From an uncultured Bacteroidia bacterium (GTDB taxonomy: Bacteria > Bacteroidota > Bacteroidia > Bacteroidales > UBA932): a DNA stretch of 64,000 nt. Positions 48,184-50,048 of the stretch are shown here, piece by piece (within the stretch, counting starts at the first letter, position 1; the number at the start of each line of letters is the position of its first letter). The stretch is taken from the NCBI GenBank assembly GCA_902785065.1, contig CACZXH010000005.1, forward strand, positions 1-64,000, read 5' to 3'. Made by a program: the position numbers and the translations under genes. The notes under the pieces are model-generated. The model searched no databases, was not told the DNA's origin, and saw only the letters and a list, made by a program, of their open reading frames with translations.

Positions 48184-49131
48184 ATGCCGGAGGTAAGCGT
48201 CATCATCGTGTGCATGAACCGGCCGGACCTGCTGTATCCGTGCCTGGAAGGGATCCGTGCCCATACCACGGTGTCCTATGAGGTCCTGGTGGTCGCTTAC
48301 CTGTTCTCGACGGAAAACCTCGCACGGCTCCGGGCGGACTGGCCCGATGTCAAGGTCGTCGAAAGCCGCGAGCTCCGGGGCTTCTCGGAGAACAACAACC
48401 TCGCTCTCCGGCAGGCGGCGGGGAAGTACTGTTTCATTGTCAATGACGACACGCTGATGGCCATGCCGGTCATGGACGCTCTCGTGGCCGATTTCGGTCG
48501 GCTGCCCGCCGACGCCGCCATCGTTTCGCCCAAGATCGTCTTCCCGGACGGCCGGGTGCAGACCAACGGCCGCGCCCCCTGGACCGCCTGGCGCTATGTG
48601 AAGCATTATCTGCACCAGGTCGACGAAACCGTCCCGACGCCCTGGTCCATGCAGGACGGACTCTTCCGGACCTGGACCGTCAACGGCGCCTGTTTCCTGA
48701 TCCGGACGGACGTTTTCCGCCAGGCAGGCTGGTTCGACGAGAACTATACCTTTACTCCAGAAGACATCGCCATTGGTCATAAAATCAATGAGATGGGATA
48801 CACCGTCTGGTCCGATGCCGATGTGACGATCACCCATCTGGCGGGCGGCACTGTCTCCCGGATGGAGGCGGCCATCAAACCCACGCGGGTGCGGGGCGCG
48901 CTGCAGTTCTACAGTGGCGGTAACCCCGTCAAGTACGGGCTGCTGGGCGCATTCGTCTGGTGCGTCGAGGCGCTCCGGCGGTTGAAGTACTTGTTTGCCG
49001 ACAAGTCCGACCCTGGCAGCCATGCGGCCATCATGGACGCGACGGCCCGGAATGTCATGCGTTCCATTTTCACCCGGCGCTCCACCAAGGAGATTTTCAC
49101 GCAGTTGTACCACGAAGTCCGCGGCCTATGA
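48184..49131 (+). CDS. GT2 glycosyltransferase (rhamnosyltransferase-like)
   Basis: Protein of 315 aa. GT-A fold: VSVIIVCMNRPDLLYPCLEGI at the N-terminus, LRGFSENNNLALRQAAGKYCFIVNDDT with the metal-binding DD, NGACFLIRTDVF and GWFDENYTFTPEDIAIGHKINEMGY. Resembles WbbL-like rhamnosyltransferases. Soluble, cytoplasmic face. The next GT2 gene overlaps by ATGA. Confidence 0.88.
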   Translation: MPEVSVIIVCMNRPDLLYPCLEGIRAHTTVSYEVLVVAYLFSTENLARLRADWPDVKVVESRELRGFSENNNLALRQAAGKYCFIVNDDTLMAMPVMDALVADFGRLPADAAIVSPKIVFPDGRVQTNGRAPWTAWRYVKHYLHQVDETVPTPWSMQDGLFRTWTVNGACFLIRTDVFRQAGWFDENYTFTPEDIAIGHKINEMGYTVWSDADVTITHLAGGTVSRMEAAIKPTRVRGALQFYSGGNPVKYGLLGAFVWCVEALRRLKYLFADKSDPGSHAAIMDATARNVMRSIFTRRSTKEIFTQLYHEVRGL

Positions 49132-50048
49132 ATATCCTCGTCATCGTCGTCACGTACAACGGCCTGAAATGGCTGGACCGGTGCCTCGGGAGCGTCCGCG
49201 CCTCCGAGCTCCCGGCGGACCTCTACGTCTGGGACAACGACTCCACGGACGGATCGGCGGACTGGGTCCAGGGTCATTTCCCCGAAGCGAAACTCGTCCG
49301 CAGCGCGGACAACCTGGGCTTTGCCGAGGCCAACAACATGGGCTTCCGCTACGCCCTGGACAAGGGCTACGACTACGTCTATCTCCTGAACCAGGACGCC
49401 TGGATCGAACCCTCCACCCTCGGCACCCTCGTCGCCGCCTCGGAAGCGCACCCCGACTACGCCGTCCTCAGCCCCCTCCAGATGACCGACGGCTTCAAAG
49501 ATCTGGACAAGCAATTTGAGAAGGCCTTTGCACCGGAGGGCATGCACTTCCAGAAACGTCGCTGCGCGACCCCTCCCAAATGGGCCCCTCCCTCTTATGA
49601 TGCCGAGGGTGGCACAGTTTCTGGAAGTGCATGCCCTCCGGTGACTGTCATTCGCATCATGGCCGCGCATTGGCTGATTCCGCGGAAGGCGCTGGAAACC
49701 GTTGGAATGTTCGACTCGCTGTTCCCGATCTATGGGAATGACGACAACTGGTGCGACCGGGCCCGGTATCACGGGTTCAGGGTCGGCATCGTGCCCGAAG
49801 CGCGGGCCGTACACGACCGGGCGTATCGGCAGGAACCCAAGGAGAAGGTCATCTACCGGAACTATTACATGGGCTCGCTCGTGCGGCTGTGCGACATCAA
49901 CCGCCCGCTGTGGGAACGCTTCCTGTTCGTGTGCCTGTTCACGCTCGTGAAGGCCGTAAAATACGGAAGCATCCTGCCGTTCAAGCACTTCCGCGCTCTT
50001 TGCAGGATGCTTCCGGAGATCCGTCAGGCCCGGAAGGCCTTCCGCTAG
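49128..50048 (+). CDS. GT2 glycosyltransferase carrying a palindromic 38-codon insertion
   Basis: Protein of 306 aa. GT-A motifs: ILVIVVTYNGLKWLDRCLGS, VWDNDSTDGS, NLGFAEANNMGFRYAL, YVYLLNQDAWIEP, and FPIYGNDDNWCDRARYHGF. Between DKQFEKAF and TVIRIMAAHWLIP lie 38 codons (49530-49643) coding a Cys/Pro-rich, unrelated-looking stretch that coincides with a 113-bp inverted repeat. Removing it would leave an intact frame reading KAF-TVIRIM. Whether the enzyme tolerates the insertion is unknown. The stop codon shares CTAG (50045-50048) with the convergent fucP stop. Confidence 0.85.
   Translation: MNILVIVVTYNGLKWLDRCLGSVRASELPADLYVWDNDSTDGSADWVQGHFPEAKLVRSADNLGFAEANNMGFRYALDKGYDYVYLLNQDAWIEPSTLGTLVAASEAHPDYAVLSPLQMTDGFKDLDKQFEKAFAPEGMHFQKRRCATPPKWAPPSYDAEGGTVSGSACPPVTVIRIMAAHWLIPRKALETVGMFDSLFPIYGNDDNWCDRARYHGFRVGIVPEARAVHDRAYRQEPKEKVIYRNYYMGSLVRLCDINRPLWERFLFVCLFTLVKAVKYGSILPFKHFRALCRMLPEIRQARKAFR
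49531..49643. repeat. 113-bp palindromic element inside a GT2 gene
   Basis: A 27-bp left arm (49531-49557, CACCGGAGGGCATGCACTTC...) is the exact reverse complement of the right arm (49617-49643, ...GTGCATGCCCTCCGGTG). The 59-bp centre has a GTCGC/GCGAC hairpin and a GC-rich tract. It looks like a REP/MITE-type insertion. Confidence 0.85.

Follow-up and report, generated by a model that had tools for sequence, protein, structure and literature searches.

A palindromic element within a glycosyltransferase gene

The window (the whole stretch of DNA that was analysed, 64,000 nucleotides) contains a GT2 glycosyltransferase gene whose reading frame runs uninterrupted through a long palindrome. A single frame is open from 48960 to 50048, with the ATG at 49128 read from the sequence as its likely start. 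The encoded protein (queried without its last residue) matches PF00535 over residues 5-132 (E = 1e-18), and no solved structure was found for it at E 0.001. The features of the locus, with the basis of each assignment in brackets, are:

49128..50048, + strand: GT2 glycosyltransferase gene, carrier of the element, 306 aa plus stop (ORF, PF00535)
49530..49643, + strand: 38 codons of the GT2 frame (114 nt, APEG...CPPV) spanning the element (sequence, ORF)
49531..49557, + strand: left arm, 5' strand of the outer stem P1 (inverted-repeat search)
49558..49570, + strand: core hairpin P2, GTCGC-TGC-GCGAC (fold, family alignment, pair count)
49575..49584, + strand: core hairpin P3, CCCA-AA-TGGG (family alignment, pair count)
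49590..49594, + strand: 5' strand of the pseudoknot, CCCTC (family covariation)
49601..49614, + strand: core hairpin P4, TGCC-GAGGGT-GGCA (family alignment, pair count)
49605..49609, + strand: 3' strand of the pseudoknot, GAGGG, inside the P4 loop (family covariation)
49617..49643, + strand: right arm, 3' strand of the outer stem P1 (inverted-repeat search)

Inverted-repeat and ORF checks reproduced exactly the two perfect 27-bp arms, the 59-nt centre and the open GT2 frame that had been reported in a preliminary description of the locus; the arms (27 nt each) are 100% complementary, 59 nt lie between them, and the unit totals 113 bp. The palindrome begins at 49531, one base after the start first assigned to it, and the interval 49530-49643 does comprise exactly 38 codons of the frame. 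Among the longest 25 of the 42 inverted repeats (>= 22 nt) in the window, it is the sole fully complementary pair. Its RNA fold reaches -75.9 kcal/mol; the 200 dinucleotide-shuffled controls give -37.1 (sd 3.2), which places it at z = -12.0, and not one control (0/200) folds as well, so the palindrome is not a product of chance.

Eight GT2 homologues from the same genus are free of the element and have a shorter, dissimilar loop, and in three further genomes (G005, G019 and G062) a copy occupies this loop of the orthologue, with both orientations represented and the encoded peptides differing. What is conserved in this loop is thus not the protein sequence, and the conserved orthologous segment that had been named beforehand as the mark of a native palindrome was not found. 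No clean pre-insertion GT2 site was met among the relatives compared. The empty-looking gene of G061 resembles, in its sequence, what a deletion between GAGG repeats would leave of a filled gene, so that the suggestion that excision would restore KAF-TVIRIM could not be confirmed; the insertion in GT2 appears to be old.

Copy number and distribution

Searching the source genome (G000) and its relatives with the 113-bp unit, a check proposed at the outset for the sake of empty sites, recovered further copies but no clean empty GT2 site. A covariance model built from 18 copies located 22 copies in G000 at E < 1e-9 and one weak copy (two opposite-strand rows of the same sites were left out of the count). 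At E 0.001 the model matched 83 of 101 genomes of the genus and gave no match in the other 18, with 0 to 33 matches per genome, counts that are lower bounds, part of the candidates having been scored. Across the family, matches were obtained at E 1e-5 in 34 of 119 genomes and 11 of 25 genera; both the genus and the family samples were drawn from larger groups. The genus may be Cryptobacteroides. A plain DNA query matched 21 of 61 genomes, all of them from the same genus (37 of its genomes were searched), and none of the 24 genomes from other families of the order, while a pattern scan of genome contigs returned at least 80 loci, titled Bacteroidales or Bacteroidia and once Candidatus Coprenecus. 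No Rfam family reached its gathering cut-off for the 17 loci submitted (five hits, all to miRNA families, lay far below the cut-offs). We found no description of this element family in the open-licence literature, and it is apparently undescribed.

A conserved core enclosed by variable arms

Each copy consists of a 25-33-bp stem (P1) around a core that is roughly 60 nt long or longer, in which three hairpins and a pseudoknot are arranged. The core reads, in order, P2 (GTCGC..GCGAC), CCCTCCC, P3 (CCCA..TGGG, with a variable loop), a second CCCTCCC and P4 with the loop GAGGGT; three genomes of another genus have it almost without change, and stems of up to about 33 bp occur in copies from another genus. 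The arms are unlike between copies and complementary within each copy, and their consensus is slight (a purine/pyrimidine pattern, GGGT, AACC/GGTT). Over 18 copies, 90.6% of the P1 cells are paired, with both-side changes at 23 of 26 pairs, and covariation over the whole structure amounts to 0.564, compared with 0.155 when shuffled and 0.08-0.13 when slid. Of 169 model rows, 123 were kept once duplicates and opposite-strand rows had been dropped. In a set of 110 copies aligned at the core edge (a copy had to match a motif anchor and to form five or more of the eight pairs at steps 4-11, a light pairing filter), P1 pairing stays at 77-100% from step 0 to step 25 and has fallen to background by about step 29.

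The pseudoknot is formed by CCCNN before P4 pairing with NNGGG in the P4 loop. It was counted by requiring GG in the P4 loop and the CCCTCCC motif while leaving the covarying bases free, and it is fully paired in 254 of 259 contexts (some of which may be one genome under two records) and in 15 of the 20 variant contexts. The pairs are CTC/GAG (239), CCC/GGG (6), CGC/GCG (4), CGT/ACG (3), CAT/ATG (1) and CAC/GTG (1), and five contexts are not fully paired. Covariation of such a non-nested kind argues for a functional single-strand fold.

A second subfamily (L092, L094-L097 and L101) is set apart by a long P3 (GTCTCCTGCG...CTTGTATCC) and, in most copies, by a CCCCC/GGGGG pseudoknot (L092 differs); several of its copies lie near a predicted gene end. 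Against the usual pattern of unlike arms, six copies in G016 (L284-L289) have mostly common arms and may represent a recent burst.

Copies inside genes

At least 8 of the 23 copies in G000 lie in frame inside conserved genes, as established by homology, the carriers being the genes for GT2, a THUMP-like methyltransferase, an ABC ATPase (where the copy follows Walker A and precedes the Q-loop), an APH-RapZ protein, a YgiQ-type radical SAM protein, TrmB, RibF and an aminotransferase. The original view of the palindrome as a REP/MITE-type element lying in frame is thereby upheld: the family is multicopy, it is found in frame in many unrelated genes, and the eight GT2 homologues mentioned above have no insert.

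Judged by codon usage, 36 of 117 copies are flanked left and right by coding sequence of the same strand; the frame was kept in 32 of these (26 stop-free, six with a stop) and changed in four, and some of the six stop-holding and four frame-changing copies may lie between neighbouring genes. Gap lengths at the orthologous sites compared in detail are multiples of three. Visual reading of 29 copies, spread over nine gene sites, gave 19 in plus and 10 in minus orientation with respect to the carrier gene; a strand tally from codon scores gave 13 plus and 10 minus of 23, and is rough (the strand of L188 is wrong, and L232 and L256 are inconsistent). As the frame is kept, the lengths come in threes and both orientations occur, the inserted segment is most simply read, from the sequences at hand, as translated in either orientation into an extra protein loop.

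Two further observations concern gene context and orientation. L098 lies in one open frame of 704 aa that covers an aminotransferase and a DAP epimerase, which may reflect either gene fusion or a frameshift in the assembly. In G016, copy orientation fits replication in 9 of 12 stretches (one mixed stretch was dropped, and GC skew is weak), and this tally was given no weight.

History at shared sites

When relatives are aligned, the same sites recur across species with the element in either orientation, and among the relatives are cores that have been inverted or swapped as well as in-frame remnants of deletion. At the YgiQ site, for which 15 relatives were searched, the core was read in five (G005, G081, G050, G019 and G011) in two orientations and was absent in nine; the site is split in G105, where it was left unread. 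At YgiQ, G061 has the core in plus and G062 in minus orientation, within arms that are nearly the same. The GT2 site of the trio G005/G061/G062 holds a minus copy in G005, a plus copy with nearly the same arms in G062 and the scar-like form in G061. In-frame remnants were recovered in G003 from RibF and from the APH-RapZ gene. Two different subfamilies occupy the same place at an M20-peptidase site, and one copy there (L444) has lost most of its core and still has perfect 23-bp arms. Eight copies of G014 have cores that are nearly alike and arms that are unlike, except for two neighbours in L274 and, partly, L278.

G000, G003 and G092 all have a copy at the ABC site, of a single core subtype; 3-4 of the 71 core bases are changed, versus 12-30% in the flanks. 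The core is also better conserved than the flanks at the TrmB and helicase/lipoprotein sites and at the methyltransferase site of G092 versus G003; the G000 methyltransferase rows (core 26/59) were dropped from this comparison, because the symmetric arms had matched opposite strands. At the OAHS-upstream site (G005/G061), 9 of 82 core bases are changed versus 43/178 and 17/168 in the flanks, so the core is there no better conserved than one flank.

No site offered a recent insertion together with a clean empty counterpart, and empty-looking sites may be scars. The check for target-site duplications likewise met no clean empty site, and the short repeats that were seen fit deletion scars. A fresh inverted duplication of the target was not supported as the source of the arms, since these were not found in empty-looking relatives (YgiQ, TrmB and ABC sites), and it is further disfavoured by several empty-looking sequences that fit short-repeat deletions of the filled form.

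Other repeats were observed at two of the sites. In L441 (aminotransferase site of G005) a second palindrome-like repeat (TTGTCATTTCGACC...GAGAAATCTC) stands, in frame, in place of most of the core; a member of one repeat family seems to have inserted into the site of another. In L105 (methyltransferase site of G078) a different repeat (TCCACCAAAAC...CCGTGGA) is present at the same protein loop, which may therefore accept several inserts.

Maintenance of arm complementarity

Fourteen orthologous comparisons yielded 38 compensated and 17 uncompensated arm differences, with transitions making up 12 of the 38; the count is approximate, for the methyltransferase comparison could pick opposite strands and two indels shift columns. 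Drift mediated by G.U pairs would favour transitions, and with only 12 in 38 we infer arm-to-arm copying at the DNA level or replacement of the whole unit. The 17 uncompensated differences indicate that the arms are not always kept equal. Counting against copying at the DNA level, A.C exceeds G.T among arm mismatches in the 110 copies (56 versus 22, p = 1.5e-4), an excess that fits tolerance of G.U in RNA of the other strand and could reflect an RNA function of the G-rich strand. Hypermutable arms were ruled out by nearly identical arms in close species (L223/L224/L238 and L110/L232).

Search for a mobilising enzyme

Y1_Tnp genes were detected in 74 of the 83 genomes that have the element and in 4 of the 18 that lack it (p = 3e-8), and in 37/40 versus 1/7 of the better ones; the association is not independent, as related species share both traits. 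Nine element-bearing genomes had no detected Y1 gene, among them G014 (70% complete), which has many copies. A model scan gave no copy at 29 of 30 Y1_Tnp loci. The single locus with a copy (L148, in G121; about 0.9 expected by chance) holds a diverged one (L148:691-832), situated some 86 nt past the 3' end of the Y1 transposase gene and provided with a covarying CGC/GCG pseudoknot. Several Y1 loci hold different hairpins of their own, and RAYT-size Y1 transposase genes in L142, L144 and L155 have their own inverted repeat (TGCTCGTACNGGTCC), unlike the element; RAYT loci were not seen to serve as parent copies.

No association was recovered for the other candidates, whether IS110 (13/83 versus 2/18, p = 1.0), RT (26/83 versus 6/18, p = 1.0) or rve (30/83 versus 7/18, p = 1.0), and reading the ORFs between neighbouring copies in G121, G118 and G061 revealed no obvious transposase of a composite element. 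A route through a Y1/HUH (RAYT-type) transposase is the leading candidate mechanism.

Proposed origin and alternatives

The element is a folded and probably mobile DNA, widespread in gut Bacteroidales, that is found between genes and in frame inside ordinary ones. We favour (with a probability of roughly 0.6) the view that it belongs to a set of short palindromic, non-autonomous elements found in one Bacteroidales family, which are mobilised in trans and tolerated in protein loops. The view draws on features read at the sequence level: the family itself, its covarying structure, the in-frame copies, the sharing of sites, the core inversion and the in-frame deletion remnants. The unit (about 110-190 bp) folds as a single strand, its long P1 closing a four-way junction of three hairpins plus the pseudoknot, and would be mobilised in trans in this folded state, most likely by a Y1/HUH transposase. 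Copies lie between genes and in protein loops, the persisting ones keeping the frame open, and translation of an in-gene copy, the simplest reading, would add some 35-75 residues to the protein as an extra loop. Sites persist for long, and within a site the core is inverted, exchanged or partly deleted as the arms mostly stay complementary; arm equality would be maintained at the DNA level (by arm-to-arm copying or whole-unit replacement), and the extra loops would be tolerated rather than useful.

Far more tentatively, we entertain the possibility that the mobile element is of a new kind: its pseudoknotted single-strand core would be inverted and exchanged within palindromic docking stems at fixed sites; the loops of housekeeping and surface-sugar enzymes would in that case be rewritten repeatedly, and the stems would be re-copied and so stay complementary.

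Core conservation in excess of what a neutral relic needs (the OAHS site excepted) counts against the mobile-element reading. It could instead point to a structured RNA that is useful to the host (a binding or processing site), selected at each place and active through its G-rich strand, an explanation with which the pseudoknot covariation, the conservation of core over flanks at the ABC, TrmB, helicase/lipoprotein and methyltransferase (G092 versus G003) sites, the nearly unchanged core in three genomes of another genus and the A.C over G.T bias agree. We nevertheless hold it to be unlikely, given the occurrence of both orientations (19 plus and 10 minus among 29 copies), the 18 of 101 genus genomes with no match, the in-frame loss at sites, an OAHS core no better conserved than one flank and the lack of an Rfam family at cut-off.

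On another reading the copies no longer move and descend from a palindromic transposon that has died out, with recombination among copies and template switching from arm to arm keeping them homogeneous. This would account for the sites common to many species, for the eight nearly alike G014 cores with mostly unlike arms and for the 23-bp arms that are still perfect in the internally deleted L444; it is distinctly improbable in view of the spread from 0 to 33 matches per genus genome (a floor) and of a core that is conserved, with its pseudoknot covarying, across genera. The genes ribF and trmB are normally regarded as important, and the position of the element between conserved blocks of such genes might suggest an intron-like or translational-bypass element that is removed at the RNA level. 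This we judge very improbable, as the coding copies compared in detail are stop-free multiples of three, a constraint that an element removed from the RNA would not be under. A palindrome native to the GT2 gene is practically untenable, even though copies occupy this loop in G005, G019 and G062 as well, because the core is multicopy, is found in unrelated genes and between genes, and is absent from eight GT2 homologues of the same genus.

Comparison with known systems

In-frame palindromic DNA in genes is best known from Rickettsia. As mobile palindromes tolerated in protein loops, the elements described here would add to it a case of different structure from common gut bacteria, in which the question how selfish DNA can enter proteins and leave them unbroken is testable in many species, and a codon site that is filled, inverted, swapped or deleted amounts to a natural experiment. 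The data also suggest that some odd low-complexity protein loops in these bacteria are inserts, which bears on annotation and structure prediction.

The Rickettsia palindromic elements (RPE) are, according to passages of PMC10969869, short multicopy palindromes lying in frame inside many unrelated genes. Our element is likewise short, palindromic, multicopy and in frame in unrelated ORFs (a likeness of lifestyle), but the RPE host belongs to another phylum, and the element has a pseudoknotted three-hairpin core and arms that are unlike between copies. It also has no single conserved peptide, several frames and both orientations giving different ones.

REPINs are described, in portions of PMC3116915 and PMC3733652, as inverted pairs of a conserved repeat, extragenic and near RAYT genes. 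The element shares with REPINs and REPs its palindromy, multiple copies and hairpins, and Y1 transposase genes are present in most of the same genomes. It differs in that the core is conserved and the arms vary, with no conserved inverted REP pair as arms, and no RAYT gene flanked by the repeat was met in 30 Y1 loci (which had one diverged, one-sided copy). CGTC-tagged REPs, in the part of PMC3733652 that treats them, are palindromes with no known dedicated transposase, some intragenic and also present in Bacteroidetes, with single 8-9-bp stems and loops of mostly 4-5 nt. Our element too is a palindrome with no known dedicated transposase and with some intragenic copies, whereas its 25-33-bp stem encloses three hairpins and a pseudoknot. 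Terminal inverted repeats are a trait it has in common with MITEs.

Integron attC sites combine variable self-complementary arms with few conserved bases and fold from one strand. The arms of the element are similarly variable yet self-complementary, and its fold is that of one strand; its copies lie inside and beside chromosomal genes and, unlike attC sites, were not seen as cassette arrays. On balance, we regard the element as REP/MITE-like, closest in lifestyle to the RPE and different from them in architecture.
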